From Carya illinoinensis (lineage: Eukaryota; Streptophyta; Magnoliopsida; Fagales; Juglandaceae): DNA of 64,000 nt. Made by a program: the position numbers and the translations under genes. The first letter of the stretch is position 1. Every line of letters starts with the position of its first letter. The stretch covers positions 31,786,967-31,850,966 of the forward strand of contig NC_056758.1 of NCBI RefSeq assembly GCF_018687715.1, given 5' to 3'. A model generated the notes under the pieces. That model saw nothing but the letters and a program-made list of their open reading frames with translations, made no database searches and had not been told where the DNA came from. Shown piece after piece: positions 2,284 through 58,134 of the stretch.

Positions 2284-5018
2284 ATGGTTGCTGAAATCGA
2301 ATCTGTGTGCCAAACGAGCGTGCCTGTGTTGGAGGTGAGCTTTCTAATCAGCTTCAATTTTTGTTTCTTTGGTGTTGTACTTGGTAATTTGCTAATGGGT
2401 TTTGCTAATTTTTAATCTGCTGTTAGGAGTTTTTTTTTTTTTTTTTCCTTTTGTTTTAGGACCTCTTTCGCATGATGCTTAGATGTTGAATTTGCATGGG
2501 TTTTTAGATTGGTGTTGTTCTTAATTCTCAGCTCGATTGGTCTTACTTTGGTGTCTTTGTTCATATACTTGGTATAAATGGGATCTGGATTGTGGGTTTG
2601 TGCTTCTTTTCAATATGAAGCTAATGTTTTGAATCTTTTGGACTTTAGGGCGTGTTTTGTGTTGGGTCTTAAAGATTGAATTAGCTGAATATTTTTAGGA
2701 TCTCGTGAAAACATGTATTGGTTTTATGATTGATATTGTGCTTTTATGTTTCCGTTGGATAGGTGAAAGGATTTTGATCTAGGGCCTTCTGAAAGTATAT
2801 CTTTTTTCAAGGATTAAAGGAAGTTCTATAAAGTTGTAAAAGTATGGTTGTGTCATATACTTGGGATTCTAAATCTAGGGGTTTGCGTGATATCTTAATT
2901 TTGTTTAATTATAAGCCAGCTTTTCTTTATAATTATGAATAACAAGGCCTAATCAATGTAAATATGCATAATAATTTGGAAAGCGAACCTCTATGTACAC
3001 TAGCAAACCATATAACACAGACGTACAGAACACAATATAGAGATGTGTGCCGAAAGTTGACATATTTATCAACCTAATAGTTCATAATTGTCAATAACCG
3101 CCTCTCAAATCACTCAGTTTACTTTCAGTTCATTGACGAGAGTCTTCAAAATATAGTAATCTATACTTGCCCATACGTATATAACAACAGGGCATATGAG
3201 GTATATGGTTTTGTCTTTGTTATCTGTTATGTTTTGATGGTTTTTCAACATTTAAGGTTAGCAATGCTAGGGAATCCTCTCGTTTTTCCAGTAAATTGAA
3301 GCTATAAAATTGATGCTCCGACATTGAAGATTATGTGTGTTCTATTCGTGCACAAAAGCTATCAGCATTAGTGTTAATACTTAGTATTAGTAATATGATT
3401 AATTGTTGGTTTCAATGTTTAGCCTTCAAGGGGGAAAATTGATGATCAAGTTCTCTGTATTTATAGGATATCAAGCCTGTGGACAAAATCCCAGATGCAG
3501 TCCTTGAATCTTCCATCCTACAATTTATGCCCAGTGTCCGCTCTGGTAGCTTCGCTGACATTGGTCCTCGAAGATACATGGAAGATGAGCATATACATAT
3601 AGATGATTTATCCTCACTCTTGGGATCAGTTTTTGAGTTTCCTAAACCAAGTGCTTTTTATGGGGTAATGAGCTCTTGAGTCTATCACTGCTATGACATT
3701 AGTACTGATAATTGTATTGCTTCATAACTGGCTGATCGTGTATATATTACACAGGTATTTGATGGTCATGGAGGACCTGAAGCAGCAGCTTATATAAGAA
3801 AAAATGTTCTTAGACTCTTTTTTGAAGATGCCGACTTCCCCCAAACATCAGAAGTGGATGATGCCTTCTTAGAGGAGGTTGAGAACTCACTTCGGAAAGC
3901 ATATCTTCTGGCTGACCTAGCCTTAGCAGATGAATTTGGTGTGAGCAGTTCCTCTGGGACAACAGCTCTTACTGCTTTGATATTTGGAAGGTATATATAC
4001 ATGCTTTAGAATTTCGTTTCTCCATGGAAAACCATTGTTTCAATTGCATGATATTGGCTCTACGCAATCATTTTATTCCATTTTAGCGTTTAGTGCAGTT
4101 GCTTTTATCAAGTCCAGTTTCTATGTATGATTAGTGGAATAATCACCGTCGATTTAAAATACGCCTAGTGAGGAATATTAGTGTTGGTTTGTTCGCCTGT
4201 CTTGTTTTATGTTTACTTGAAACAGTTAACATTTGCCCATTCCTGATTTCCTTGGCATACCTTTTTGCTATATTGGCTAGACGGGCTGATGTTGGCTATA
4301 TACTTGTCTTGTTTTCCCTTTTTTTTAAGTAAAAAAATGTGTATTAGCTCAAGAAGAATGCCAATTGCTCTGTATGTGCTTTGGTTTAATTGTTCTGCTT
4401 AGTTATTTTCAGTATAACTTCCTGCTGACAGAACTCTTCTTTTTCAGGCTTCTCTTGGTTGCCAATACTGGTGATTGCAGAGCAGTTCTTTCTCGGAAAG
4501 GAAAGGCAATCGACATGTCTCAAGACCACAAACCCATTTATCCATCAGAGAGGAGGCGAGTTGAAGAGTTAGGTGGGTTCATCGATGACGGGTATCTCAA
4601 TGGTGTTTTATCAGTTAGTCGAGCCTTGGGGGACTGGGATCTGAAGTTCCCTCGTGGTTCTTCTTCACCACTTATTGCAGATCCAGAATTTCAGCAGGTG
4701 GTTCTAACTGAGGATGATGAGTTCCTCGTCATGGGGTGTGATGGAATTTGGGATGTGATGTCTAGTCAGCAAGCAGTTAGCCTTGTTCGTCGTGGGCTGC
4801 GGCGGCATGGTGACCCAGAACAGTGTGCTAGGGACCTTGTCATGGAAGCCTTGCGTCTCAACACATTTGACAATCTCACTGTGATTGTTGTCTGCTTCTC
4901 TTCTCTGGATAACTGGGAGCCATCACCACCACGGCAACCGAAGATGAGGTGCTGTAGCCTCTCTGCAGAAGCCCTTTGTAGCCTGAGGAGCTTGTTGGAT
5001 GGCAGTGCCAGCAGTTGA
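2284..5018 (+). CDS. Protein phosphatase 2C (PP2C/PPM family), 4 exons
   Basis: Exons 2284-2334, 3467-3664, 3755-3990 and 4448-5018 join in frame (phases 0, 0, 2) to give 351 residues. The product should be a Mg/Mn-dependent serine/threonine phosphatase. Signature motifs are intact: RRYMEDEH (52-59), FDGHGG (85-90), ANTGDCRAV (167-175), [10 protein letters not shown] (219-228), CDGIWD (259-264) and FDNLT (302-306). Metal-binding aspartates D57, D86, D260 and D303 are present. The N-terminus and the RSGSFADIG segment resemble the Arabidopsis PP2C-49/PP2C-13 group, which is a single catalytic domain without a receptor or kinase part. The ATG starts MVAEIESVC and ends its exon at a clean GTGAGC donor. 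The substrate cannot be inferred. The gene is convergent with the START-domain gene downstream. Confidence 0.93.
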
Positions 5019-6651: not shown

Positions 6652-9600
6652 TCATCTAGTTGGGTCTGCTTGGTAGGATTTTACAAATGATGCAAATCGT
6701 TCCATATCACTTCGTAGTAAGCCTTCAAGAAATGGTTGCAGTGCCTGGATAAGTTTAACATCAGAAAAAGAAAATCGATGGATGACATCATCCATGATAC
6801 ATCTTTAAAGCAAAGAAACATCTAGCACGGATTGAAAGATGGAGAATAGAGGAAGGGAAGTTTGAGGCATATGCCTCCGTTTTATTTCTTAAATCCCTTT
6901 CCTTTACCAATCAAAACAACAGATACGTTTGCTCCAGCATGAAGCAATGCATAACATGCCAAAAACAAAAAAGAGTTAGAAGATTACCGATGCCACTGGA
7001 ACGAAGATCTGAGGAACTTCATATGACACTGTCAGCTGGAAAGAACAAATGCAAATAATTGTAAGGGCATATGAGGAACCTAAGCCATAAAAAGTGGAAA
7101 ACAATAGGAGAGACATTGTATCAAATTGATGGCATGTATATCCCCACAAGTTCATCAAACTGTGCCCTGCTAGGAAGAGAGCACGAGGCCCTTATGTTAT
7201 TTTTTTTTTTCCTCACAAATAAACCATTTGCTATGCGTTACTAAGAAATGGGTCACTCTGTTAGAATTTTTGTCTTATCAACGTTACAAAAAGCAAGTGA
7301 TAGTTCACGAGACTGCCACATGGAAAATTTGAGTTTTTTTTTAATATTATTAAAATTAAAAAAGCTAGCAAATAGACCTTTTTATGATTTGAAAAAGCTA
7401 TTAACTGTTACAGCAAATAGCTCTAGCCATCCCCATGGTGGCAGAACTCAGCTACCAAGGGGTAGCTGATGGTCACCCCATCAAGCTACCAAGGGGTAGC
7501 CTCTACTTTTTCTAATGATGAAAATTTGAACTTTATAATTTCAATATTTTTTTATATTTTTCTGAGTTTTTATTTTAAAAAGTACTAAAGTTTTCATGCG
7601 GACTGCCACATGTTTTCAGTTGACATTGATGGATGAAAAGGGTAATGGAAGGACCCATTTCTCAGTAACTCATGGGACAAAGGGTTATTTCTAAAAAAAA
7701 CACAGGAGTCAAATTTTAATTACACCAAATCACAGAAGGTGTTTGACCAAGATTTTCTAAAAAGTAAAATGGAAAAAACTAAATTAAATGTCGTAGGAAA
7801 AGCACCCTTACTTCAACTATGCATGATGAAGGACCTTTCGGATAAAATCGAACAGCACCTCTGCCATTTGAAAAATCAGTCTATCAGGATTATACTAATA
7901 ACTTAAATGAAAACAAAACATATAGATAAGGTTTATGAACTAAAAGTATAGCAAATAACTACAGCATTTAACGTTTAGTTCTATAAATGAAAGGGGACTT
8001 AAAGATGAGCAAGTACAGCAGTTGAGAAGATAGTTTGCCAGATCATGTCCACAAGAACTGTCAAAATTGAAGATAGTTTGCCAGTTCATGTTCACAAGAA
8101 CTGTCAAAATTGAATAGCTTAAATTGCTGAGAGTGCCTTCGTGATGAATCTAAGAAGTTGAGGCTTTTTAACTTTGTTGTTTTAATGTTCTTCAAAATAT
8201 AAGCAACACCCAAAAAATTTGAAGCAGTTTGGACTTTGGCATATGATGCAGGAAAGCCAACTTGTTAAATTATCCATCATTTTCAGATAATTGATTTCAT
8301 TGAGATATCAAACTGAACATTGTCATCTAAGAAACACTAAACACTACAAGGCAACTAGGGAAATGTCAATGTGCTAAGACATCACCCAGAAGATGACTGA
8401 CTACCTTCAAAACTCCATTTATACTCTTTTTCTTTGTTTACTTTTCAGATTCTGTATTAAGTGTGAGAGTTTAATCTTCCTTTTTCTTCCTTTGCCATCA
8501 TATGCTTCGCCTAATAAAGCCTCGGAAGACATTCACCACTGACATTGAACTGAAAAGGTAAATAACAGATAAAATACACTATACTGTATCACTGTTTCTA
8601 TAGTTACCTGTTAGGAACACCTTCCAGGGATCTCCAGTGGATCTTTTGATTTGGGATAGGCTGCAAAAAGTGTATCATATTATGATTCAAATTACAGGAA
8701 AAGGGGAGACAAAAACATCCTTACCTGAAAATTTCGTGTAAGCCAAGAGAAATCAACATCGCGGCCAAATGCTTTATACTTCATCGACCATCGAGATAGC
8801 TCGGGCTTGTCTTCCAATATCTGGTAGGAGAAACGAAGCATCAAGTTCTCAAAGAATCACAACTCTGAAACTGATCAACTACATGGGACTCAATACTCAA
8901 TAATATCATTACAGTGATGCACTCTTTAGGCATTAAATTGGCAGGGTTGAAAACTCAAAACTAACGCAAGTCTGCAATAACATGCTCGACAGTTATAACT
9001 GCTATGAAAAGCAGAACCATTTCCACCTTCTCAAGTTTGGCACAATAATATATGGACTGTTAGCCTGATTAAGCTGAGCATTAAAACTGAGTCAAGTGTC
9101 CAGTAGTATTAGATTAGCTATACAAGAAACTAAGCACCCCCTATGACCTTTACAAAGGAAAGGATACTTTGCTTTTGTTCACACAAGTAAAATAATTGGA
9201 ATTGGCAGTACTTTGGAAATTCAATCTTGCGGCACCTTTACTGAGGAAATAGAGGGCATCCAACGGGGAACGGCTTCACGATCAGAGTAACAGTTATAGG
9301 CAACTGAAACAGGCACGTCAGTTTCCACCTTGACCCTGCATATTGTCACATTTTGTAGTTAATGGTAGTAACCAGTAAGCAGATATCTTAGCTCAAATTG
9401 CCAGCCTTGGCACGCCAAGAACTGACTATATATATGTAAGGACTTGCATTATATTTAATCAAAAGGATCAACATGGGGGAGCATCTTGGCATCAAACTAT
9501 CAGATTCTGATATTAATATTAAGAACGAAGCTACAAAAGACTTACAAAATCAATCATTGTTCTACAAAAATGATATCACTGGAGTAGCATCAATTAATAG

Positions 9601-39564: not shown

Positions 39565-39569
39565 ACTAG

Positions 39570-42500
39570 TGTGACGCCCCCAAATTCCGTTTGGGATCGG
39601 ACGGACATTTGAAGCGTCGAGACATGCAACACAAGGTTACCTGCCCCCGTTCATGACATATAAGATGCAATGTTTCTAACATGTATCTAACATTATGCAA
39701 TATTCGCAGCGGATAATTTTTTTCTTTAGCAATATTATACACCAAATTGAAAATATCCTAAATGCTTAAAACATACTTCATACATAAAGACCGATTGAAT
39801 AGATCACAACACTAGTCCAAAATGGTTATGATCCAAAAAATACTAAAGATGCAACTCTATTGTATAAGTAGTAATTTACGTTAACTACTATATTAACATT
39901 GACGTCGCACCGTCGCTTAGTTAACTGTCTAGTTGATCAGCTCCTGATTCTCCTTCAGGTCCTGTAACAAGATCTACCATTCGGGGGGAATGGTAGTTGG
40001 GACTACCAAAGTGAGATTTGATTACAAATCTCAGTAAGTTAACAAAAAACTTCCACACAAGCTAATGATGCATGCATGACAGTAAAAGCATAAATGCATA
40101 ATCAAATTCATAAGTAATTAAAGCATAACTTGGTGTACAACATAGCATAATTGACATAACTTAAATTGAAACATGAACTGAACTTGACTTGACATGAACT
40201 TGATTTGAAACTTGACTTACCATGAAAAATACATACTCCACAGTTGTTGTGGCCCCATGTATTCTACACAAACTTGATTTAACATAAAAAATACATACTC
40301 CACAGTTGTTGTGGCCTCATGTATTCTACGTGTAAATACATACTCCACAGTTGTTGTGGCCCCATGTATTCTACGTGTAAATACATACTCCACAGTTGTT
40401 GTGGCCCCATGTATTCTACACAAACTTGACTTAACATGAAAAATACATACTCCACAGTTGTTGTGACCCCATGTATTCTACGTGTAAATACATACTCCAC
40501 AGTTGTTGTGGCTCCATGTATTCTACGTGTCACAATTGCTGTGTCTCACGTAGTGTATGCGTCACAATTGCTGTGACCCCATACATAAGTAATCAAGATG
40601 AAACGTGATTGGAATACGAAATGACTGAAGCCCCGACGTAACATAACGTGACTTGAATATAACTTGAAATACATGACCAACTTGAGATAGAAATATTTCG
40701 TAACATTGCATAACATATAATAGACAACATATTTAACATGACATACTTGCAACAGTGAATATTACATGACTTGACAGACATGTAATAGATGACGTACTTA
40801 GCATGACGTACTTGTATGATACAGTAATACATGACAGAATATATTATGTAACAGATAAAAATTGACGACAGAATAAATTCTGTATAATAGACAATTACGT
40901 GATAACTTGGCATGGCATGACATATATGATAACACACATACATACACTGTAGCTCCTTTACTTAGCACACATACACAGTAGACTGCTAGTAAGTTAAAAG
41001 CTAACTTACCTCGATCTCCGCGTTTCTTATAAAACTTCAAGTGCGACCACGAGGAACTGTAATTAGTGATTCTAAAAGTTAAAACTATATCACTAATAAT
41101 TTGAAATATGGAAAATACTAACTTAAAGAGTAAAATTTTTATTTTACTCTCTACATGTGGAAAAATGACCGTTTTACCCATAACTTAAGGATTTTGCATA
41201 CTAACTCCAAAAGTTTCCAAAATTTACATTCCTCATGTAAATTTTGTCCTAAACTTAAATATCAACTCAGAAAAATTTAAAACAAAACACAACTATGAAG
41301 AACACACTATGGCCGAAACATCAATAGGCCATTTCCCTTGATTTTTGTTGCAATTCCTTCCAACTTCAAAACTCATGCTTAAACCAAAATTTTGCAACAA
41401 ACATCTTCCAATTCTAAGTTCAAAACCATACTTAAAACATCCATTTAGAAAAAGCTAATAATTAACACCAAACTTTTTTGTAAAAAGATCCAAGCACTTG
41501 AATCACAAGTTTTGACCTTAAATCAAAACATCTCCAAGAATTTCAAAAATCAAATTTACTTCTAACATATTCATAATATCATCCTAACATCAACCATGCT
41601 TTAAATCATCAAACTAAAGTCACCAAAATCACAAAATAACATTTGGAGTTTTTGGTTTTACACTTAGTCCAAAAACAGAAACTTTTTCCTCAACTGGTTT
41701 TGATAAATCTCTTGATCTATGACTTATAAATATATGATCTTCAAACAAAACCATCACATGGTTTAAAAAGATGTCCTAAAACATATATAAGCTTCTAATT
41801 CAAGATCACATGGTTAGAAATTAACCAAAACATAAATTTAGCCAAGAATATCCACACTTTGGCTTATTTGAATATCTCTTTGCATAAAATTTCATATCTT
41901 TGAAACTAACATCAAATATCTTCAAAATAATAATATAACATGTATATAAGATGCTTAGGATCCTCCAATAAAATTATCAAAGTCATTGGAATAGGTTTAG
42001 ACTACCAAAGAGTTAAACTTTCTCAAAACAGAAACTGTTTTTCTTCTTCCAGTTTCTAAGTTTCTAAATCTAAGAAAATCTTTCATCAAAACCTTTAATC
42101 ATGCAAAAATCCTCAACCAATAGTCACATATACATGTTAACAATACTCCATAAAAATTTCGGACCAATATCTATCTATTAGCTTGGTCAAAAACTCCAAA
42201 CTATAACATATTCTCCAGTTTATCTGTCAGAATGACCTTTCTATAGTTTACACAATATTTGACTGACCAAATGATCTTCAAACGGGGCAAATAAGATATC
42301 CATGTAAACTAAACTAAAAAATGAACAACTTATATGAAGGAGACTTTATGATAAAACACTTACAAAAGCTTCGAAATGGGTGTGTAAAAGACCTCCTAAA
42401 AGCTGTCCGAGAGAGTGTTTGATATTTTTTCAATGGAAAGTGTAAATGAAGATAATTTCGTGGGGAGAGGTGGCTGGAGATACTTATGAATGAGATATAG

Positions 42501-43005
42501 AAGAGATGAGGCTGGAGTTGAGAGTTGAGTGTAGTTTTCTCCTACCCAAAATATCAATAAAAGATTATCTCATAATATTCTATCCAATAGTATCTACAAA
42601 AAATCAATTTAAGATATTTTTATCTAATAATATCTATAAAAATCAATTCAAAATGTTTTTACCCAATAATATTCATGAAAATTACCTCAAAATATTTCTT
42701 TTTATTCAATAATATCTACAATTTTGAACAGACATTTTGTCCGAAAATATGAAAAAATGTTATTGCGCCATAAGACTTTAAATAATCCTTCGAGTCTAAT
42801 GGCACAAACCATAATACATTTTGACACTTCTAACTATCTCCAATAATCAAAAACACACTTATGATACCATAGTAAATAATAACACTAACTATATAATTAG
42901 ACAAAAACCTATACGATTAATGGATTCGTGAAAACTTATGGGGTTTTCACGAGGTTCCTAAAGTTAATAGAAATTTCACAATTGAATTTCTAGTGGGCTG
43001 TTGCA
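39570..43005 (-). repeat. 3' LTR of the non-autonomous element
   Basis: Begins on the minus strand with TGCAACAGCCC (one change from the TGTAACAGCCC of the other copies) and ends GGGGGCGTCACA. It is 3,436 bp. By eye it differs from the 5' LTR by a few substitutions per hundred bases at most, plus two extra minisatellite units. Confidence 0.9.
40221..40530. repeat. LTR minisatellite, 6 units (copy 1)
   Basis: The phrase CATACTCCACAGTTGTTGTG, followed by GCCCCATGTATTCTA, is repeated six times, with two alternating spacers (a short CGTGTAAATA and a longer CACAAACTTGAC..AACATGAAAAATA). Each unit is an imperfect hairpin (AATACAT..CCACA against TGTGG..ATGTATT). The second LTR has four units and the solo LTR five, so the array changes by whole units. 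Confidence 0.9.
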
Positions 43006-43017
43006 ATCTCCCCTCCT
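43006..43017 (-). other. Polypurine tract of the non-autonomous element
   Basis: On the minus strand AGGAGGGGAGAT directly precedes the first bases of the 3' LTR, the standard position and composition for the plus-strand primer of an LTR retrotransposon. Confidence 0.8.
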
Positions 43018-43528
43018 AAAAAAAAGATTTCGTCATCGAAATCGAAGTAAGTAAGAAATAACAAGTTAAGGAATATGTGTTGCTTACCAACCTGGTGTCT
43101 ATCCCGTATATATTTGCCTTTGAAATTATGTCATTCCTTAACTTTCTTATTTTAATCAACAATTATATTATACTTATTTCCACAAGGTTGGCCAAGTTGT
43201 ATCGACACACTCTCCAAACCTAAAATTTTAAATAAATAATCTTCCGAAACTCTTCTTTAGAAAAACATAGGCGATATACTTTAAGTGTTCTTGTAAATAT
43301 CAAACTTAGTAGAGAATTCATCAAAATTAAGCCGTTATCCTCTCTCTCTCTCTCTCTGTTTTTTTTTTTTTTTTAAAATCGGTGGCCCTCTGTTTTAGAC
43401 CAGACAACTCTGATGCGCATGATTTTTATAGGTCTTCTGTAATTGTCAGGCACCGCAGCTATGATACTACATTGCTCTTGTCTTTTGTGGAGAAATGATT
43501 CACGAGAGATGATTTGTCATAATTTTCT

Positions 43529-43537
43529 CTATAAAAG
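43529..43537 (+). promoter_or_regulatory. TATA box for the antisense ORF inside the element
   Basis: CTATAAAAG lies about 100 bases before the ATG at 43638 and is followed by a CT-rich leader (TTCATCTTCTTTCTCATC) typical of plant transcription starts. It points against the direction of the retrotransposon. Confidence 0.6.
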
Positions 43538-43637
43538 AATTATTCAGTTCATCTTCTTTCTCATCTCATCTTCTTCACTTTTCTGAAATTAGTCTGCATT
43601 CTTACTCTGCAATCTCTTTCTGCTTACTCACTTTGCA

Positions 43638-44066
43638 ATGGCTCAGCAATCTTCTCATTACCAAAACATGAGGTATTCTGCACCTCGTTCACCAGTTGTT
43701 TATGCTTCTTCCGTAGGTGCTATAATGCAATCTAATAATGATTTGACTAATAAGTCAGATAATGAACTTATCTACGAGCTTGTGAGTCTCGGTACTCGAT
43801 ACTCATCAGCCATTGTCGCATATTCTCAGCGACTGCAATCCAGGACTGGTGGGGTTGACAAACTCCACGAGAAAATTTCTATCCTTCAGAGGCTTCTTAT
43901 GGAATCCAACATGAAGATAGAAGCAGTAAAGCGAGAGAACAGAGATTTAAAATCTTTGCTTAACTCTACTTTTCGAGTGGCTACTCCTTTAGATAGGAAA
44001 GACATGCAGATTTTTGAAGAGCAAGAGCGTTTAAAGATTGAGGCAAAGAGCCTCAAATTTTTGTAA
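43638..44066 (+). CDS. Antisense ORF of the non-autonomous retrotransposon, unknown function
   Basis: An intact 142-codon ORF lies between the LTRs, on the strand opposite to the element. I recognise no domain. The N-terminal ~40 residues are Ser/Tyr/Gln-rich. A segment NELIYELVSLGTRYSSAI follows, and residues ~73-110 (VDKLHEKISILQRLL...MKIEAVKRENRDLKSLL) have the heptad and charge pattern of a coiled coil. The tail is rich in charged residues. There is no signal peptide or membrane helix. A TATA box (43529), a pyrimidine-rich leader, and AATAAA at 44081 make it a self-contained transcription unit. Antisense ORFs near the 3' LTR are known from some plant Ty3/gypsy lineages, but their roles are unclear. 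It could be a captured host gene piece; codon-level selection is untested. Confidence 0.65.
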   Translation: MAQQSSHYQNMRYSAPRSPVVYASSVGAIMQSNNDLTNKSDNELIYELVSLGTRYSSAIVAYSQRLQSRTGGVDKLHEKISILQRLLMESNMKIEAVKRENRDLKSLLNSTFRVATPLDRKDMQIFEEQERLKIEAKSLKFL

Positions 44067-44080
44067 TTTTGCTTTATGAT

Positions 44081-44086
44081 AATAAA
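44081..44086 (+). terminator. AATAAA downstream of the antisense ORF
   Basis: A consensus polyadenylation signal 15 bases after the stop codon of the antisense ORF, within the internal region of the retrotransposon. Confidence 0.5.
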
Positions 44087-44099
44087 ATAATACTTCACA

Positions 44100-45215
44100 A
44101 ATATTCATATTTGTGTTTCTATCTTCTGGTAGATGTTTTATGTGCTCCATTTTATTTCTTTCAGGGATTTTCATATATATGACATGATCCAATGACTCAT
44201 ATAAATATGCATTTAATCATGCTTATCCAAACTCTCAGTAATCTTCAAGTTAATAAAAACCTCAAGGAGTTCTACTGGTCTAGGACTAACTTACTTCTTT
44301 ATAATCGCAACAATCAGTCATCTTCCTAGGTGGTACTTCGATAACTGACCAGTTAATAACTTAAACTTGAGACTTTCTCTCTTATGATTGTCATAACTCT
44401 TCTATCCATCATGAGTTATCAATTATTTTAACTCTAAATGATTTGTTCCTAATGTTCAAATAAATCCTCAAGACCAAGATTTTACTCCCCATATAATAGT
44501 CTTCAAAATAATATCGATCTATGTATCCATAAAGATAGTGCTTTGCCAGAAATCATTTATTGGCGGCGTGGTAATACTATTATCATAAACGAATCCTACT
44601 AAGGCTAAAGATTCTCCTAATCAAATTACTCTTCCAAACAGAATTTCTATCGTATTCTCAGAATCACAACAATCCTCTAAATATGTGAAATACCATTCAT
44701 CAATCCTACATATCCTTTCTCATATTACTAAAAGGTATTCTATATCTACATTGGTATGAACAATAATATTTCTAATGAAAATTGTTACTCTTACCACTAG
44801 GGTAACAATTCAGCTTCCAAGCTGAATTCTCAAGCACTACCACAATTAATAGAAACAATGACTCGTTTGAATCAAACAATGTACAATTTACCAATTCCAA
44901 AGACTTGACCTACTCCAAAATAACAATAATGCAATACTACCATCAATTGCAATCAGATCAAAGTTAACTATGTTTACCTCAACTAATCCTTCATCCATCG
45001 GAAATTCTGATCCTCTTGATTGTTATCTCCCTTAGGATTCCGAGGTATTCTATCACGAGTCATGTGTCCCTTCTTGAAACACACGAGTATATGTATAAAA
45101 ACCACATACTACCTTTCATACCTTAAGAAATTCAAGCCTATTGACGATTAAAATTTCAAGCCTAATGTTTGGTGCATTTCCTAAGGACATGTGGATTTAC
45201 TGCCCGGAGACGTAT
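44100..45215. other. Degenerate internal region of the element
   Basis: No ORF of note on either strand. Read on the minus strand this is where gag would lie, just after the primer-binding site, and only a short zinc-knuckle-like relic near 45002-45081 is legible. The remainder is AT-rich and broken. Confidence 0.5.
45002..45081 (-). pseudogene. Relic of a gag zinc knuckle
   Basis: On the minus strand the frame starting at 45081 reads CFKKGHMTRDRIPRNPKGDN. This matches the second half of a CCHC knuckle (C-x4-H-x4-C) with the last Cys replaced by Arg and the first Cys lost. It agrees with the orientation set by the primer-binding site. The match is short. Confidence 0.4.
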
Positions 45216-45217
45216 TT

Positions 45218-45229
45218 GCTCTGATACCA
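45218..45229 (-). other. Primer-binding site (initiator tRNA-Met)
   Basis: On the minus strand TGGTATCAGAGC lies three bases after the end of the 5' LTR. It is complementary to the 3' end of plant initiator tRNA-Met, the usual primer of plant LTR retrotransposons, and fixes the element's orientation. Confidence 0.9.
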
Positions 45230-45232
45230 CCC

Positions 45233-48200
45233 TGTGACGCTCCAAAATTCCGTTTGGGATTGGACGGACATTTGAAACGTTGAGACATGCAACACAAGGT
45301 TACATGCTCCCGTTCATGACATATAAGATGCAATGTTCCTAACATGCATCTAACATTATGCAATATTCGCAGCGGATAATTTTTTTCTTTAGCAATACTA
45401 TGCACCAAATTGAAAATATCCCAAATGCTTAAAACATACTTCATACATAAAGACTCATTGAATAGATCACAACACTAGTTCAAAATGGTTATGATCCAAA
45501 AAATACTAAAGATGCAACTCCATTGTACAAGTAGTAATTTACGTTAACTACTATATTAACATAGACGTCGCACCGTTGCTTAGTTAACTGTGTCTAGTTG
45601 ATCAGCTCCTAATTCTCCTTCAGGTCCTGTAACAAGATCTACCATTCGGGGGGAATGGTAGTTGGGACTACCAAAGTGAGATTTGATTACAAATCTCAGT
45701 AAGTTAACAAAAAACTTCCACACAAGCTAAATGATGCATGCATGACAGTAAAAGCATAAATGCATAATCAAATTCATAAGTAATTAAAACATAACTTGGC
45801 GTACAACATAGCATAATTGACATAACTTAAATTGAAATATGAACTGAACTTGACTTGACATGAACTTGATCTGAAACTTGACTTACCATGAAAAATACAT
45901 ACTCCACAGTTGTTGTGGCCCCATGTATTCTACACAAACTTGACTTAACATGAAAAATACATACTCCACAGTTGTTGTGGCCTCATGTATTCTACGTGTA
46001 AATACATACTCCACAGTTGTTGTGGCCCCATGTATTCTACACAAACTTGACTTAACATGAAAAATACATACTCCACAGTTGTTGTGGCCCCATGTATTCT
46101 ACGTGTCACAATTGCTGTGTCTCACGTAGTGTATGCGTCACAATTGCTGTGACCCCATACATAAGTAATCAAGATGAAACGTGACTGGAATACGAAATGA
46201 CTGAAGCCCCGACGTAACATAATGTGACTTGAATATAACTTGAAATACATGACCAACTTGAGATAGAAATATTTCGTAATATTGCATAACATATAATAGA
46301 CAACATATTTAACATGACATACTTGCAACAGTGAATATTACATGACTTGACAGACATGTAATAGATGACGTACTTAGCATGACGTACTTGTATGGTACAG
46401 TAATACATGACAGAATATATTATGTAACAGATAAAAATTGACGACAGAATAAATTCTGTATAATAGACAATTACGTGATAACTTGGCATGGCATGGCATA
46501 TATGATAACACACATACATACACTGTAGCTCCTTTACTTAGCACACATACACAGTAGACTGCTAGTAAGTTAAAAGCTAATTTACCTCGATCTCCGCGTT
46601 TCTTATAAAACTTCAAGTGCGACCACGAGGAACTGTAATTAGTGATTCTAAAAGTTAAAACTATATCACTAATAATTTGAAATATGGAAAATACTAACTT
46701 AAAGAGTAAAATTTTTATTTTACTCTCTACATGTGGGAAAATGACCGTTTTACCCATAACTTAAGGATTTTGCATACTAACTCCAAAAGTTTCCAAAATT
46801 TACATTCCTCATGTAAATTTTTTCCTAAACTTAAATATCAATTCAGAAAAATTTAAAACAAAACATAACTATGAAGAACACACTATGGCCGAAACATCCA
46901 TAGGCCATTTCCCTTGATTTTTGTTGCAATTCCTTCCAACTTCAAAATTCATGCTTAAACCAAAATTTTGCAACAAACATCTTCCAATCCTAAGTTCAAA
47001 ACCATACTTAAAACATCCATTTAGAAAAAGCTAATAATTAACACCAAACTTTTTTGTAAAAAGATCCAAGCACTTGAATCACAAGTTTTGACGTTAAATC
47101 AAAACATCTCCAAGAATTTCAAAAATCAAATCTTACTTCTAACATATTCATAATATCATCCTAATATCAACCATGCTTTAAATCATCAAACTAAAGTCAC
47201 CAAAATCACAAAATAACATTTGGAGTTTTTGGTTTTACACTTAGTTCAAAAACAGAAACTTTTTCCTCAACTAGTTTTGATAAATCTCTTGATCTATGAC
47301 TTATAAATATATGATCTTAAAAAAAAACCATCGCATGGTTTAAAAAGATGTCCTAAAACATATATAAGCTTCTAATTCAAGATCACATGGTTAGAAATTA
47401 ACCAAAACATAAATTTAGCCAAGAATATCCACACTTTAGCTTATTTGAATATCTCTTTGCATAAAATTTCATATCTTTGAAACTAACATCAAATATCTTC
47501 AAAATAATAATATAACATGTATATAAGATGCTTAGGATCCTCCAATAAAATTATCAAAGTCATTGGAATAGGTTTAGACCACCAAAGAGTTAAACTTTCT
47601 CAAAACAGAAACTGTTTTTCTTCTTCCAGTTTCTAAGTTTCTAAATCTAAGAAAATCTTTCATCAAAACCTTTAATCATGCAAAAATCCTCAACCAATAG
47701 TCACATATACATGTTAACAATACTCCATAAAAATTTCGGACCAATATCTATCTATTAACTTGGTCAAAAACTCCCAACTATAACATATTCTCCAGTTTAT
47801 CTCCCAGAATGACCTTTCTATAGTTTACACAATATTTGACTGACCAAATGATCTTCAAACGGGGCAAATAAGATATCCATGTAAACTAGACTAAAAAAGG
47901 AACAACTTATATGAAGGATACTTTATGATAAAACACTTACAAAAGCTTCGAAATGGGTGTGCAAAAGACCTCCTAAAAGCTGTCCGAGAGAGAGTGTTTG
48001 ATATTCTTTCAATGGAAAGTGTAAATGAAGATAATTTCGTAGGGAGAGGTGGTTGGAGATACTTATGAATGAGATATGGAAGAGATGAGGCTGGAGTTGA
48101 GAGTTGAGTGTAGTTTTCTCCTACCCAAAATATCTATAAAAGATTATCTCATAATATTCTATCCAATAGTATCTACAAAAAATCAACTTAAGATATTTTT

Positions 48201-48584
48201 ATCTAATAATATCTATAAAAATCAATTCAAAATATTTTTACCCAATAATATTCATGAAAATTACCTCAAGATATTTCTTTTTATCCAATAATATCTACAG
48301 TTTTGAACAGACCTTTTGTCCGAAAATATGAAAAAATGTTATTGCGCCATAAGACTTTAAATAACCCTCCGAGTCTAATGGCACAAACCGTAATACATTT
48401 TGACACTTCTAACTATCTCCAATAATCAAAAACACACTTCTGATACCATAGTAAATAATAACACTAACTATGTAATTAGACAAAAACCTATACGATTAAT
48501 GGATTCGTGAAAACTTATGGGGTTTTCACGAGGTTCCTAAAGTTAATAGAAATTTCACAATTGAATTTCTAGCGGGCTGTTACA
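45233..48584 (-). repeat. 5' LTR of the non-autonomous element
   Basis: The LTR is 3,352 bp. On the minus strand it begins TGTAACAGCCCGC and ends GCGTCACA. It is shorter than the 3' LTR by 84 bp, explained mainly by two fewer minisatellite units. A 127-codon open frame at 46374-46757 is also present in the other LTR, but simply reflects shared low-complexity sequence. Confidence 0.9.
45886..46105. repeat. LTR minisatellite, 4 units (copy 2)
   Basis: Same CATACTCCACAGTTGTTGTG-based units as in the 3' LTR, but only four. Because both LTRs of one element are identical at insertion, at least two units were gained or lost since then. Confidence 0.9.
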
Positions 48585-48769
48585 ACTAGGGCTAGCTGCT
48601 AGCTTGAAGTTGTAACACTGCTGATAATAGATGTAATATAGACTAGTAGAACATAGAAAAATAGCACTGCTTTCTTCAAGAGAAAGCGCCTCCAAGGCAT
48701 AGAGAGAAAAGAGATATGGTTTTTGATTACAAAAATTATATTTACAGTAATTTTAGCATATTTTTTTAT

Positions 48770-48911: not shown

Positions 48912-51900
48912 TTACAACGGACTCAAGAAAACAAACTGATCCAGGTGCATGGCCCACTTACACGGACTCAAAGCCAGTAAATAACATAACAAAAATTCTA
49001 TGTGCAGTTCTTTTTGTGCACTCTTTTGTACACTCCAGTGATATGATTGGTTGGATATTAAAAAAAAATTAATCCAGCCAATCATATCAGTGGAGTGCAT
49101 AGAGAGTACGCAAAAGTGACTGTATGTAGCATTGCTCATAACATAATAGGCCCAAATGACTAAAGCCCACTTAAGAAGACAACACTTCTTCCTTCTGTCA
49201 GTCTTTTGCACGTGAGCTAGGGTTTGACTGTACTTCCTCAATGTCGAGCGCCGCTCCTCCACTTTTTCCCCCATCTGAGCCGGTGGATAGCCGGTGCCTG
49301 TTACAGAAGTCATATTCTGCAACTTTTGGGGATAAAGCTCTCGTGTTCGAGCATAGAGACAACATGCTAGGAATGTCCCGAGAGAACATAGAGAACCCCA
49401 GATAAAAAACGTAGTTCTGTAGCATTTCATTCCCATGCATATACTATTTCCATTTCCTTCCCTGCGGTAAAGGAAAGCTGCCAGGCAACCAAAAGTTAAG
49501 GATCCCACTGGAATATTGGCAATCACCACGTTATGATTCCGAGAAAATTCCTCCCTCCCGAACAAGTCTGCTGTGATGCATACACCGACAGATGAAATTG
49601 CTCCGGCACATACTCCTATAATGGCAGTGCTGATGTATAAGAGGATGTTGGTAATGGAGGGAACAATTAGTAAGAAGAAAGCTAATGCCATCAGAGCCAT
49701 TGATACTGCTGCCAAAGATGTTGGTCTTGAAATCACCTCATACCTAGTCCTGAAAGATTCAAAAGACAATTGAAAGACATATAGACTTGGTTAACTTTTT
49801 GTATATATGAAACTTGGTTGAGAACCGTACTGATATATGGACATGGAATGAAATTGATAATTACTAGCCACTTGGTCATGCAAGTGATCATTGGATAAAT
49901 ATATATATTAGAATTTAATTTGTTGTCAATCGCGACGTTCAATCCCAAAATGCATAGAATTTTTCGTCAAGTTCTTAAATATTATGTAACAGCCCGCTAG
50001 AAATTCAATTGTGAAATTTCTATTAACTTTAGGAATCTCGTGAAAAACCCATAAGTTTTCACGAATCCATTAATCGTATAGGTTTTTGTCTAACTACATA
50101 GTTAGTGTTATTATTTACTATGGTATCAGAAGTGTATTTTTGATTATTGGAGATAGTTAGAAGTGTCAAAATGTATTATGATTTGTGCCATTAGACTCGG
50201 AGGGTTATTTAAAGTCTTATGGCGCAATAACTTTTTTTCACATTTTCGGACAAAACGTCTGTTCAAAACTGTAGATATTATTGGATAAAAAGAAATATCT
50301 TGAGGTAATTTTCGTGAATATTATTGGGTAAAAATATTTTGAGTTGATTTTTATAGATATTATTAGATAAAAATATCTTAAGTTGATTTTTTGTAGATAT
50401 TATTGGATAGAATATTATGAGATAATCTTTTATAGATATTTTGGGTAGGAGAAAACCACACTCAACTCTCAACTCCAGCCTTATCACCTCCCTTATCTCG
50501 TCCATAAATGTGTCTAGCCAGCACCCATGAACTTATCTTCAATTACTCCTTCTAATAAAAGATTATCAAACACTCTCTCTCGGACAGATTTTAGGAGATC
50601 TTTTGCACGCCCATTTCGAAGCTGTTGTAAGTGTTTTATCATAAAGTCTCCTTCATATAAGTTGTTCCTTTTTGAGTCTAGTTTACATGGATATCTTATT
50701 TGACCCATTTGAAGATCATTTGGTCGGTCAAATATTGTGTAAACTATAGAAAGGTCATTCTGGGAGATAAACTGGAGAATATGTTATAGTTTGGAGTTTT
50801 TGACCAAGCTAATGGATAGATATTGATCCGAAATTTTTATGGAGTATTGTTAACATGTATATGTGACTATTGGTTGAGGATTTTTGCATGATTAAAGGTT
50901 TTGATGAAAGATGTTCTTAGATTTAGAAACTTAGAAACTGGAAGAGGAAAAACAGTTTCTGTTTTGAGAAAGTTTAACTCTTTGGTGGTCTAAACCTATT
51001 CTAATGACTTTGATAATTTTATTGGAGGATCCTAAACATCTTATATACATGTTATATTATTATTTTGAAGATATTTGATGTTAGTTTCAAAGATATGAAA
51101 TTTTATGTAAAGAGTTATTCAGATAAGCCAAAGTGTGGATATTCTTGGCTAAATTTATATTTTGGTTAATTTCTAAACCATGTGATCTTGAATTAGAAGC
51201 TCGTATATGTTTTAGGACATCTTTTTAAACCATGTAATGGTTTGGTTTGAAGATCATATATTTATAAGTCATAGATCAAGAGATTTATCAAAACTAGTTG
51301 AGGAAAAAGCTCATGTTTTTGGACTAAGTGTAAAACCAAAAACTCCAAATGTTATTTTGTGATTTTGGTGACTTTAGTTTGATGATTTAAAGCATGGTTG
51401 ATGTTAGGATGATATTATGAATATGTTAGAAGTAAGATTTGATTTTTGAAATTCTTGGAGATGTTTTGATTTAAGGTCAAAACTTGTGATTCAAATGCTT
51501 GGATCTTTTTACAAAAAAGTTTGGTGTTGATTATTAGATTTTTCTAAATGGATGTTTTAAGTATGGTTTTGAACTTAGGATTGGAAGATGTTTGTTGCAA
51601 AATTTTGGTTTAAGCATGAGTTTTGAAGTTGGAAGGAATTGCAACAAAAATAAAGGGAAATGGCCTATGGATGTTTCGACCATAGTGTGTTCTTCATGGT
51701 TGTGTTTTGTTTTAAATTTTTATGAGTTGATATTTAAGTTTAGGACAAAATTTACATGAGGAATGTAAATTTTGGAAACTTTTGAAGTTAGTATGCAAAA
51801 TCCTTAAGTTATGGGTAAAACGGTCAATTTCCCACATGTAGAGAGTAAAATGAAAATTTTACTCTTTAAGTTAATATTTTTCCATATTTCAAATTATTAG

Positions 51901-54666
51901 TGATTTAGTTCTAATTTTTAGAATCACTAATTACAGTTCCTCGTGATCGCACTTGAAGTTTTATAAGAAACGCGGAGATCGAGGTAAGTTAGCTTTTAAC
52001 TTACTAGCAGTCTACTGTGTATGTGTGCTAAGTAAAAGAACTACAGTGTATGTATGTATGTTATCATATGTGTCATGCCATGTCAAGTTATCATGTAATT
52101 GTCTATTATACAAAATTTATTCTGTCATCAATTTTTATCTGTTACATAATATATTCTGTTATGTATTACTGTACATTACAAGTACGTCATGCTAAGTATG
52201 TCATCTATTACATGTAAGTCAAGTCATGTAATATTCACTGTTGCAAGTATGTCATGTTAAATATGTTGTCTATTATATGTTATGCCGTGTTACGAAATGT
52301 TTCTATCTCAAGTTGGTCATGTATTCTAAGTTATGTTCAAGTCACGTTATGTTACGTCAGGACTTCAGTCCTTTCGTATTCCAGTCACATTTCATCTTGA
52401 GTACATTATGATGTGTAGAATACATGGGGCCACAACAACTGTGGAGTATGTATTTTTAAATGTTAAGTCAAGTTTGTGTAGAATACATGGGGCCACAACA
52501 ACTGTGGAGTATGTATTTTTCATGTTAAGTCAAGTTTGTGTAGAATACATGGGGCCACAACAACTGTGGAGTATGTATTTTTAATGTTAAGTCAAGTTTG
52601 TGTAGAATACATGGGGCCACAACAACTGTGGAGTATGTATTTACACGTAGAATACATGGGGCCACAACAACTGTGGAGTATGTATTTTTCATGTTAATTC
52701 AAGTTTCAGAGCAAGTTCATACTAAGTCAAGTTTCATATCAAGTTCATGTCAAGTCAAATTCAATTCATGATTCAATTTAAGCTATGTCAATTATGCTAT
52801 GTTGTACGCTAAGTTATGCTTTAGTTACTTATGAATTTGATTATGCATTTATGCTTTTACTGTCATACATGCATCATTAGTCTGTATGGAAGTTTTTTGT
52901 TAACTTGCTGAGATTTGTAATCAAATCTCACTGTGGTAGTCCCAACTACCATTCCCCCCGAATGGTAGATCTTGTTACAGGACCTGAAGGAGGATCAGGA
53001 GCTGACCAACTAGACACAGTCGACTGAACGACGGTGCGTCGTTAATGTTAATATAGTAGTTAAATTACTACTTGTACGATGGAGTTGCATCTCCAGTACT
53101 ATTGGATCATAACTATTTTGGAATAGTGCTGTGATCTTAGTTATTCAATGGATCTTTATGTATGAAGTATGTTTTCAGTATTGGGATATTTTCAATTTGG
53201 TGCATAGTATTGCTAAAGAAAAAAAAAAATTATCCGCTGCGAATATTGCATAATGTTAGATGCATGTTAGGATTATTGCATCTTATATGTCATGAACGGG
53301 GACAGGTAACCTTGTGTTGCATGTCTCGACGTTTCAAATGTCCGTTCGATCCCAAACGGAAATTTGGGGGCGTCACATATTATGTACTAATGGTCAAGTA
53401 CAGCCACTACAAGGAAAAATTTGCTATGAAAAAACTATATATGCAAAGTTTTAACTGATCATTAACAATTTTGATCCGATCCATATTATAACGGGCTGGC
53501 GGCCTACCTAATCTAAAAGAAATGATAATGGAGACCGAAAGTAGAGTTTAAGAGAGTCACCGTGAGAAGCAGTAGTCCATAAAGGATGGGATGAGCCGGC
53601 CGAAGAACCCGAACGAAGAAGACAAGGAGACTAAAGAGCTCGCAGAGTGGCCACGGGATTCAGCTATTTGAGCCAAGTTGTTAAAAAACACCAGTCCCAG
53701 CGTCGGCCCACAAAGGTACATGAAAAAATACAAATAGAAATCGCATCTTTGTACCATCTTCTTCACTCCCATCTCCTCAAATTTAGAAGTTGTACTTTGC
53801 TCTCCCTCTCTCACGGCCTCCTTCATTCTATTAACACCTCCACTCTCTTCTGAAGAACCATCAACCACTCTTGTGTCTGCATCATTATCATCCACATTTC
53901 CTGACAATTCTAAAATTGGAACTACTAAAGGGAGCAATAGGAAAACTCCCATGCCAACAATTTTACCCAGAGGTGAGATTGGAACTAAACTGCTGATCAA
54001 AGAATAGATTCCAGTCCCTAATGCTATGACAAATAGAACAGCGAACCCAATTCTCATGCTTGATCTTGGTTGTCCAAATTCAATTTCTGGAATCAGAATT
54101 GGTGCAGCTATGACACCAAAGATTATAGCTGAGATAGAGTTGAGAAGTAGAAACGCTTCAGCTATTTTATCGGGCGCAGGGGAAAAAATAGCATGAACAA
54201 AGTCCGTATAGATCTTTGCGCTTAATCCTTGGTAGCTAGTTGCTATCCCCGCCACAACTTGTTGATGATGAGAAGGAAATTTCCTTACGATAACCACGTT
54301 GCAGACTGTGTTAATCCAAGAGATACCGAGGCTTGCAAATAAAATGAATAGGAAGAAAACCCAATTCATATAAATATGGAGTTTTAAGAGGAGGAACGAC
54401 AATCCATAGAAAACAAACCCGAGAAAAGAACCAATCAGGAGCATTAACCAGAGGGATAGACGATCAGCCAATAACCCGGGTAAGAAACCGAAGATCTTTC
54501 CGGCATCAAAGGCAAAGGCGAGCAGGATGACTTGCATCTGGGATATAGAGAGTTGGTTCTTGAGTTGGATAGAATAAGCAGGGAAATTGAAATTTGTTCC
54601 ATTTACAACTTGAAGCCACACGATCGCCACAAGGCTTAGCCATGGAAGAACTGATCTGGAAGACAT
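48912..54666 (-). CDS. Nodulin-like/NFD4 major facilitator transporter, 2 exons, intron split by a solo LTR
   Basis: Exon 1 (54666-53561) and exon 2 (49749-48912) join in frame (phase 2, Arg codon) to 647 residues. Exon 1 carries the plant nodulin-like MFS signature: WLQVVNGTNFNFPAYS, LKNQLSISQMQV, AFDAGKIFGFLPG, LGISWINTVCNVVIVRKFP, then a charged loop and CDFYLYFFMYLCGPTLGLVFFNNL. Exon 2 continues with RPTSLAAVSMALMALAF, GVCAGAISSVGVCITADLFGRE and NIPVGSLTFG. About twelve hydrophobic segments fit a membrane transporter; its substrate is unknown. The start is the first ATG in frame (MSSRSVLPW), with TATATAAA about 115 bases upstream. The 3.8-kb intron is mostly a solo LTR. The C-terminal ~75 residues look non-native and run through a foldback MITE at 48996-49130. 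Confidence 0.85.
48996..49130. mobile_element. Foldback MITE overlapping the 3' end of the MFS ORF
   Basis: Near-palindromic element. The left arm is CTATGTGCAGTTCTTTTTG..CACTCCAGTGATATGATTGG; the right arm is its imperfect complement (CCAATCATATCAGTGGAGTG..CAAAAGTGACTGTATGTAG), with an A-rich centre. It lies within the last exon of the MFS gene, so about 45 codons near the C-terminus come from the element. It is related to the foldback at 10913-11027. Confidence 0.8.
49985..53377 (+). mobile_element. Solo LTR of the same family, plus orientation, in the MFS intron
   Basis: Begins TGTAACAGCCCGC, ends GGGGGCGTCACA (3,393 bp) and is flanked by the 5-bp duplication TATTA (49980-49984 and 53378-53382). 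It is the inverted equivalent of the two LTRs at 39570-48584. With no internal region and perfect flanking duplications, it is the product of recombination between the LTRs of a complete element inserted in the intron, antisense to the host gene. Removing it and one duplication leaves an intron of about 410 bp. Confidence 0.92.
52415..52695. repeat. LTR minisatellite, 5 units (solo LTR)
   Basis: Five units of the CATGGGGCCACAACAACTGT.. type (complement of the units in the other LTRs), again with two alternating spacer types. Confidence 0.9.
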
Positions 54667-56880: not shown

Positions 56881-58134
56881 TCACATGCGCCATAAATGAG
56901 TAATACCTGAATCTGGAACATCTGAAGGTGCTCCACCAATCACTGTACTGCCCTGAAGAAAATAAAGACCATCTGTCTTCTTCCCTGTCATTACCACCGA
57001 AGAGCCCTTGTAGACTCGAATGACTCCACCTCCAGCTGAATACTGGTAACCAAAGGAGTCAAGAATGCCCAAAGATATAAGATTTTTCTTCAAAGATGGA
57101 ATATGCCGAACGTTACACAAGGTTCTAACGAGTCCATCATACATCTTAATTTCAACTGAACCAATCCCAACAATATCACAAGCCATATCATTTCCAACCA
57201 AAACGGAATCACCGTTGATTGATTCATAGGTAGTGAACCAATCTATCCTGGAATACATATGGAATGTACAAGCTGAATCCATGACCCACTTGTTACTAAA
57301 GTGACCACTAGAGCCACTGACTGCTAGGACAACACCAGAGTTGTTAGACTCAACGCTAACAACATTGGAGGAACCTTTACTTTCCTCCTTCAATCTGGAA
57401 CACTCATTCTTGTAATGACCAAACCTATGACAGTAGTGACATTTAACATTTTTCTTGTTAAATTTAGAGCTACCACTGGAACTACTCCCACCATAATCCG
57501 AACCTCTTCCATTAGATCTACCACCAGAGGAATATTTCACAAACAAACCATTGGCTTGATTGTCCGTGCCTTGTACACACAATTTTGTTCTCAACTCCTT
57601 AGAATTCAAAGCAGATTTTACATCTACCAAGGAGATGGTATCTCTACCATACAACATTGAGCTCACAAAACTTTCAAATGATATCGGCAACGAACACAAC
57701 AAAATTAACGCTTGATCCTCATCATCAAGCTTAATATCAATATTCCTTAGATCCATAATAGTTTTATTAAATTCATCTAGATGATCGGAAATAGGAGTAC
57801 CTTCCCTCATCTTGAGAGTGTATAGTCGCTGCTTCAAATACAAACGGTTGGTGAGCGACTTTTTCATATACAAGCTCTCAAGCTTGGACCAAAGACCGAA
57901 AGCGGTCTCCTCATCAGCAACCTCCCTCAAAACTCCATCTGATAGTGATAACAAAATGGCACTATGTGCCTTCTCATCTTCTTCTCTTGACGATGCAGGA
58001 GAATCTTCGGATACCTTCCCCTCCAAAGCTTTCGACAAGCCTTGTTGTCGTAACAACGCCTTCATCTTGATGCGCCATAAGCTAAAGCTGTTTTGACCGT
58101 CGAATTTCTCCACTTCAAACTTTGCCATAGCCAT
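56881..58134 (-). CDS. Copia gag-protease polyprotein, truncated before integrase
   Basis: An open frame of 417 codons. The N-terminal ~190 residues are the Ty1/copia gag (UBN2) region: KFDGQNSFSLWRIKMKALL, LWSKLESLYM, LYTLKMREG and LDEFNKTIMDL. A Gly/Ser-rich linker leads to a CCHC zinc knuckle (CHYCHRFGHYKNEC, 232-245). The aspartic protease follows with WVMDSACTFHM; the usual DSG triad is DSA here (286-288). The frame stops at ITHLWRM, where the pre-integrase (LWH..LGH) domain should begin. The protein could still bind RNA and assemble, but protease activity is doubtful and no polymerase is encoded. Confidence 0.88.
   Translation of the reverse strand: MAMAKFEVEKFDGQNSFSLWRIKMKALLRQQGLSKALEGKVSEDSPASSREEDEKAHSAILLSLSDGVLREVADEETAFGLWSKLESLYMKKSLTNRLYLKQRLYTLKMREGTPISDHLDEFNKTIMDLRNIDIKLDDEDQALILLCSLPISFESFVSSMLYGRDTISLVDVKSALNSKELRTKLCVQGTDNQANGLFVKYSSGGRSNGRGSDYGGSSSSGSSKFNKKNVKCHYCHRFGHYKNECSRLKEESKGSSNVVSVESNNSGVVLAVSGSSGHFSNKWVMDSACTFHMYSRIDWFTTYESINGDSVLVGNDMACDIVGIGSVEIKMYDGLVRTLCNVRHIPSLKKNLISLGILDSFGYQYSAGGGVIRVYKGSSVVMTGKKTDGLYFLQGSTVIGGAPSDVPDSGITHLWRM

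Follow-up and report, generated by a model that had tools for sequence, protein, structure and literature searches.

Antisense accessory genes in LTR retrotransposons

Antisense open reading frames (ORFs) of unknown function located near the 3' long terminal repeat (LTR) are known, as several papers describe (PMC7264820, PMC11963269, PMC4093653, PMC6317226). Examples of this class, termed aORF-3R or eORF-3'R, include gene23 of maize Grande, RIRE2 of rice, ORF4 of Silene Retand and the pvRetro13-type ORF2 of common bean; gene23 has its own promoter, from which it is transcribed, and a nuclear product, and some pvRetro ORF2 proteins contain an SMC-type domain (PMC7264820, PMC11963269, PMC4093653). 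The antisense ORFs of bean, as tabulated there, measure 211-939 aa, Retand proteins often carry Transposase_28, and Retand and 15 bean families are described as gypsy-type. Grande and RIRE2 are gypsy-type as well. We describe here an antisense gene of 142 codons, ORF-B (43638-44066, plus strand), in a 64,000-nucleotide stretch of the pecan (Carya illinoinensis) genome (NC_056758.1, positions 31,786,967 to 31,850,966; hereafter the window, to which coordinates refer). ORF-B lies in a non-autonomous 9-kb LTR element (39570-48584) whose sense strand is the minus strand. ORF-B is carried by a gypsy derivative devoid of gag-pol, by a copia element and by a third element, and we consider it rather probable that it is an accessory gene exchanged among LTR elements. 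The sequences compared below suggest that LTR elements can pass such a gene among themselves.

ORF-B resembles the aORF-3R class in being antisense, near the 3' LTR, kept in most copies and of unknown function. It differs from the examples above in its length (142-148 aa), in showing no Transposase_28 match and in being found both in Ty1/copia and in a gypsy-derived family without gag-pol. In the copia carrier (locus L058), ORF-B occupies the typical aORF-3R position, between pol and the 3' LTR, and is accompanied by a homologue, ORF-A. The HBZ protein of human T-cell leukemia virus type 1 (HTLV-1) is a helical bZIP protein. The HBZ gene is also antisense, with a promoter in the 3' LTR (PMC11963269, PMC10186651), but the analogy to ORF-B is positional only, and by eye ORF-B has no basic region. 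Like the copia carrier, SIRE-type Ty1/copia elements carry an additional gene, the env-like eORF-3'F, in the interval from pol to the 3' LTR; these extra ORFs are sense, whereas ORF-A and ORF-B are antisense, and the survey describing them scored eORFs from 250 codons up (PMC6317226). Because of this limit of at least 250 codons, such a survey would miss ORF-A and ORF-B.

Large retrotransposon derivatives (LARDs) are non-autonomous LTR elements that lack gag-pol and have no coding capacity. The family of the window element resembles them in its long LTRs, conserved primer-binding site (PBS) and polypurine tract (PPT), absence of gag-pol, many copies and likely LTR-matched helper, but differs in bearing an intact antisense gene that the fetched parts of the helper lack; with an intact ORF-B, the window element does have coding capacity. 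Long LTRs combined with an extra ORF are also found in Retrosat2, RIRE3 and RIRE8, whose LTRs exceed 3 kb and whose ORF0, of unclear function, is under a constraint unlike that of gag-pol; ORF0 lies upstream of gag-pol, and the term 'antisense' is absent from the accessible text (PMC3485330). In the literature consulted, thin for subscription papers, no antisense ORF is reported as common to copia and gypsy elements or as the sole gene of a gag-pol-less family. ORF-B is best read as a variant within the known class of antisense accessory ORFs.

ORF-B in three carriers

A preliminary description, made from the sequence of the window alone, had pointed to a 142-codon ORF opposite to the element strand with a TATA box, a CT-rich leader and an AATAAA, and all of these were confirmed. 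The plus strand carries TATAAAA at 43530-43536, 108 bp 5' of the ATG, a leader with 74% C+T, and a polyadenylation-like AATAAA at 44081-44086. ORF-B is antisense both to the PBS/PPT order and to a gag relic matching a gypsy partner described below. It occupies the 3' half of the internal region, in an element without pol, and is the sole substantial ORF there: no other ATG-initiated ORF of at least 50 aa lies wholly inside 43006-45232, and an 87-aa minus-strand ORF (45181-45444) reaches 52 bp into its right edge.

The same description recognized no match for the protein. Three successive searches returned 7, 22 and then 26 relatives, 48-93% identical to the window ORF, and relatives were found in other LTR elements. 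Two of the relatives, P0009 and P0003, led us to further carriers in the pecan genome (674 Mb, 17 contigs).

The carrier of the P0009 family is a Ty1/copia element. Pfam detects RVT_2, rve, gag_pre-integrs and Retrotran_gag_2, and a single pol frame contains, in order, gag_pre-integrs, rve, SH3_retrovirus and RVT_2, that is, the integrase before the reverse transcriptase. In one of five fetched stretches, gag and pol each form one open frame, of 546 and 1031 aa, respectively; pol is broken or shortened in the other four. At locus L058, LTRs occupy 977-2323 and 7634-8980, the gag and pol frames are on the minus strand, and two ORFs antisense to them lie between pol and the 3' LTR: ORF-B (within 3343-3924) and ORF-A (2794-3243, plus strand). 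The ORF-B segment is the only match between this carrier and the window element. ORF-A (150 aa) is homologous to ORF-B, with a profile E-value of 3.4e-13 versus 0.0087 for the best of 1000 heptad-preserving shuffles. Among its best 150 of 4264 genome places, a hand count gave 148 without stops and 101 at 100% identity; tblastn found no match to ORF-A in the window.

The third carrier, represented by a copy of the P0003 family (L061), is an LTR element in which a copia-like gag is broken and little of pol is present. It has short LTR-like repeats with units of 52-bp period, lacks TGGTATCAGAGC (the PBS of the window element), and contains a fragmented gag, whose zinc knuckle falls just short of the cut-off (E 4.8e-4), and, by eye, a relic resembling an RNase H tail, with no Pfam match. 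ORF-B is antisense and placed before this relic. A second copy of the family (L092) is colinear with the first, with 91% identity over 2448 bp. What the P0003-family element and the window have in common is an antisense cassette of about 1 kb (43287-44265, plus strand) that comprises promoter, ORF and 3' flank. The matches are colinear (43287-43337, 84%; 43499-44162, 85%; 44148-44265, 87%), and nothing else matches. The TATA motif stands at -108 from the ATG in the window, at -108 in the P0003-family copy and at -111 in the copia copy. We detected no LTR and no further coding sequence in common among the three carriers.

Selection on ORF-B

We estimated the ratio of nonsynonymous to synonymous substitution rates (dN/dS, or omega) with a codon model, using six pairs per comparison; the pairs reuse sequences and hence are not independent. 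Between the window ORF and the P0003 copy, omega is 0.483 (2dlnL 5.8), and other pairs between the window family and P0003 gave 0.433, 0.516, 0.541, 0.455 and 0.509 (2dlnL 4.0-7.8). Values involving P0009 are approximate owing to saturation (dS 1.3-1.5): 0.231 with the window (2dlnL 29.6), 0.257 with P0003 (2dlnL 27.4), and 0.237, 0.209, 0.202 and 0.245 in further pairs (2dlnL 28.7-36.1). Two P0003 copies compared with each other gave a non-significant 0.450 (2dlnL 2.0). Shifted-frame controls yielded 0.97 and 1.80 for window/P0003, and 2.77 and 1.78 for window family/P0009; the value of 2.77 (2dlnL 11.9) is expected, because free third positions then fall into replacement positions. The protein is conserved end to end and, as estimated from codon substitutions, is under purifying selection between families.

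A protein-only test had a mixed outcome. For each protein, we counted how many of 300 neutral simulations reached the observed conservative fraction and the observed mean score, respectively: 31 and 19 for P0001, 0 and 0 for P0008, P0009 and P0014, 6 and 3 for P0010, 3 and 21 for P0005, and 9 and 4 for P0017. Two further proteins are considered below.

The window family as a gypsy derivative

The window element is bounded by the target site duplication (TSD) ACTAG (39565-39569 and 48585-48589, unstranded). On the minus strand, it consists of a 5' LTR of 3352 bp (45233-48584), a PBS (45218-45229, TGGTATCAGAGC, recognized by eye and by a junction-pattern match), which we take to be of the tRNA-Met type, a PPT adjoining the 3' LTR (43006-43017, AGGAGGGGAGAT, recognized by eye) and a 3' LTR of 3436 bp (39570-43005). 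The LTR pair differs by 59 transitions and 16 transversions over 3346 sites, a Kimura two-parameter distance (K2P) of 0.0228; at substitution rates of 1.3e-8 to 2e-9 per site per year, the insertion would be, very roughly, 1-6 million years old. Tandem repeats inside the LTRs (45831-46106 and the counterpart in the other LTR), with a unit of about 107 bp and sub-repeats, are apparently unlike between the two LTRs.

The LTR-PBS junction pattern has 12 exact occurrences in the genome. We fetched eight of these loci; of the remainder, one is the window itself and three adjoin places already scored in searches with the window sequence. Four of the eight (L082, L083, L084 and L089) have the leader of the window followed by a Ty3/gypsy gag and protease, two (L085 and L087) are copies of the window type, one (L086) matches the window for no more than about 400 bp, and one (L088) has the leader and little else. 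The LTR end, PBS and leader in common with the gypsy partner cover 265 bp (44979-45243, minus strand) at 84-85% identity. On L084 and part of L082, Pfam detects Retrotrans_gag, RVP_2, Ty3_capsid and zf-CCHC. The preliminary description had read a stretch of the window as a zinc-knuckle relic. This is ruled out: the stretch (44983-45108, minus strand) aligns at the DNA level with the start of the partner's gag ORF, the protein being read by eye, and the true zf-CCHC is elsewhere, at residues 318-334 of the partner's 660-aa frame.

On the 3' side of two of the four partners (L090 and L091), an integrase frame is followed by the PPT stretch, 59 bp of which are in common with the window (43006-43064, minus strand), and by an LTR 95% identical to that of the window over 2.2 kb (L090) and 1.8 kb (L091); the repeat-bearing remainder of the L090 LTR is 83-85% identical. 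Pfam matches on L090 are SH3_Tf2-1 (E 6e-25), rve just below the cut-off, and a weak Chromo match (E 0.022, below the cut-off) that touches on the question of a Tekay-type chromovirus. Since LTR, PBS leader and PPT are all in common with a gypsy element bearing gag, protease and integrase, the window element is a Ty3/gypsy derivative in which gag-pol has been replaced by the 1.9-kb segment 43065-44978 (unstranded), for which blastn found no match in the gypsy pieces L082, L084 and L090. The gypsy element with the matching LTR is a likely helper of the window family.

To describe this family we retained the best 40 of 1768 candidates, ranked by DNA match to 43500-44100 and not by reading frame; all are 98-100% identical. 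After omission of one copy (L038, 423 of 429 bases matched), 39 full-length ORF-B copies remain, and ORF-B is intact in most of them (28 of 39). The preliminary description's picture of a decayed individual element did not hold: no other ATG-initiated ORF of at least 100 aa occurs in any of 39 internal regions scanned (L054 omitted; 37 of the 39 cover more than 2000 of the 2227 bp), and the same coding-poor internal region is found in L081, a copy from a tandem array on C7 that represents a subfamily of many equal-scoring places. The window family is better read, from these copies, as a gag-pol-less family that multiplied in that form than as one decayed element.

Many places listed in the genome searches lie in tandem arrays. 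Units follow each other every 5.3-6.1 kb in arrays of the window family and every 7.84 kb or so in those of the P0009 family, which is nearly the length of one LTR plus one internal region. Arrays reach up to five units in the places listed (for example, G000 C1:15282936-15306896, C3:45111345-45134401 and C11:10623660-10648313). In L054 (G000 C1:462000-468500), two copies of the antisense ORF lie 2793 bp from each other, a distance shorter than an LTR and an internal region together.

Properties of the ORF-B protein

Full-length relatives of ORF-B start with MA-, a few with a short extension, and end with LKF-L/M. In a tree of 19 protein rows, the window ORF groups with P0001 and P0003 (support 92/89), P0009 and its kin form a second group (98/100) and P0008/P0010-type proteins make up a third (99/97), and ORF-A sits on a long branch. 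P0010 and P0012 were considered as further families of the pecan genome and rejected. Their best places there are 64% and 67% identical, respectively, and several of the best 150 places scored are the same as places of the window or P0003 families. The source of P0010 and P0012 is probably other plants; ORF-B thus probably predates pecan and occurs elsewhere among plants as well. Among the relatives are three pecan 'hypothetical proteins' (P0004, P0015 and P0018), and ORF-B may explain some annotations of this kind. The viral-contig and genome-contig collections scanned with ORF-B contained no relatives. One relative, P0025, is on a 673-bp contig labeled Streptomyces clavifer, presumably a contamination. 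We do not count the ENA contigs of P0001-P0003 as evidence of transcripts: translation of the P0006 protein runs, by eye, across the TATA region, so that at least this contig is no clean mRNA.

Pfam searches with 22 homologues and the window ORF gave sub-threshold matches only and no known domain above the cut-off. Membership in the Transposase_28 (PF04195)/Retand group was rejected: the window ORF has no match at E up to 1, and the family is not among the first 25 of 53 Pfam families listed for the 22 homologues. Structure prediction, a check proposed at the outset, gave helices and no fold match. The AlphaFold2 model places helices at residues 23-38, 41-111 and 120-140 and gives the N-terminus low confidence (pLDDT 78, pTM 0.38). 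With this model, Foldseek retrieved nothing from PDB at E up to 10, and from BFVD a best E of 5.6 (probability 0.06); a profile search against PDB sequences gave weak matches only (best E 0.029). As no fold match was found, the model says 'helical' and no more, and the ORF-B protein is predicted to be short, helical and coiled-coil-like.

Transfer among elements and other explanations

If ORF-B was exchanged among elements, a cassette of promoter, ORF and 3' flank would have moved from one to another, most likely through template switching between co-packaged RNAs of separate elements. The antisense mRNA for ORF-B would come from an internal Pol II promoter, and the ORF-B product may be a short, helical, probably oligomeric accessory factor acting in trans. 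Because no LTR or other coding sequence was detected in common among the carriers, this product would more probably act on a general host factor (in silencing, RNA handling or nuclear transport), or on the cassette, than on an LTR site specific to one family.

Several observations weigh against this reading. Neither ORF-B nor ORF-A has a match in the fetched parts of the gypsy partner, which leave about 1.6 kb of pol outside both. The third carrier is only tentatively of the copia class, with a sub-threshold Pfam match (E 0.08). In the protein-only test, P0003 (93 and 102 simulations) and P0012 (169 and 180) behave as expected of unselected sequences. Protein-ranked genome searches, which together scored at least 450 places and in which ranking by score favors intact copies, contain stops (hand count) in 24 of the best 150 of 4587 candidates for the window ORF, 8 of the best 150 of 4625 for P0009 and 59 of the best 150 of 4559 for P0003. 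Shared variants in the window family (49 nonsynonymous, 29 synonymous) do not differ from singletons (66 and 27; Fisher P = 0.33) over 57 copies, 18 of which were pre-selected as stop-free (20 fetched, two 423-base matches dropped). The preliminary description had suggested selection as a cause of ORF survival; this stands between families (0.20-0.26 and 0.43-0.54), while selection is weak within the window family, where mean dN/dS is 0.70, part of the way to 1, and singletons look neutral. Finally, 11 of the 39 copies are broken and, between the window and P0003 families, the 3' flank (44056-44155, about 90%) is as conserved as the ORF.

These last points fit another explanation, to which we give a clearly smaller but still appreciable probability: ORF-B entered a gag-pol-deleted gypsy derivative by recombination and was amplified there as mere cargo, the ORFs being intact because copies are recent and the constraint being imposed mainly in the copia lineage. 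Singletons in the window family (59 nonsynonymous, 21 synonymous and 7 stop) fit the neutral proportions of about 0.68:0.28:0.04, and five of the broken copies have the same stop at codon 129, which implies that a truncating change was inherited. Against mere cargo stands the omega between both poorly coding families, low in six of six non-independent pairs with P of about 0.005-0.045, together with the shifted-frame controls for these families. It is unlikely that the antisense RNA itself is what matters, through double-stranded RNA (dsRNA) or interference with sense transcription, and that the ORF is incidental or secondary. The promoter-like TATA and the leader are conserved, and PMC7264820 discusses a dsRNA role for such antisense units, but the constraint acts on the protein in its true frame, and the protein is conserved end to end despite differing element flanks.

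The preliminary description also considered a captured host exon, and a compact unit with its own promoter-like and polyadenylation-like signals would suit a host exon or gene that later spread among elements. We rate this origin as slightly less probable again. The 22 homologues contain no known domain above the cut-off, and no non-transposon gene was identified among the best 150 places scored per search, places that were not each assigned; a diverged single-copy host gene could escape searches of this depth. A chance ORF with no gene behind it is next to impossible. When the internal region is dinucleotide-shuffled, 4 of 1000 sequences contain an ORF of at least 142 codons; of 30 shuffled versions of the whole 64-kb window, 1 does. 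Because shuffles sometimes reach it, the length of ORF-B is weak evidence and homology decides instead: homologues, selection and recurrence in three element families contradict a chance origin.

LTR families are usually classed by their gag-pol genes. Here, one protein gene occurs across Ty1/copia and Ty3/gypsy-derived carriers with unrelated LTRs, so the histories of accessory genes may be separate ones. On a further reading, less probable than not, a gag-pol-less element keeping ORF-B alone would be the minimal carrier of the gene. According to PMC9073684, within-family selection on a transposon gene is expected only if the product favors its own copy. An element that needs gag and pol in trans, yet carries a gene that looks constrained between families, makes such a benefit in cis testable.

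Neighboring features

A solo LTR of the same family, in orientation opposite to the element, occupies 49985-53377 (plus strand) and is flanked by a TSD of about TATTA. By eye, two minus-strand ORFs (48912-49700 and 53557-54666) resemble exons of a single nodulin-like/MFS transporter gene. The solo LTR would sit between them, with the full element about 330 bp beyond the second ORF. Further along the window, a minus-strand ORF of 417 aa (56881-58134) looks, by eye, like a copia gag.

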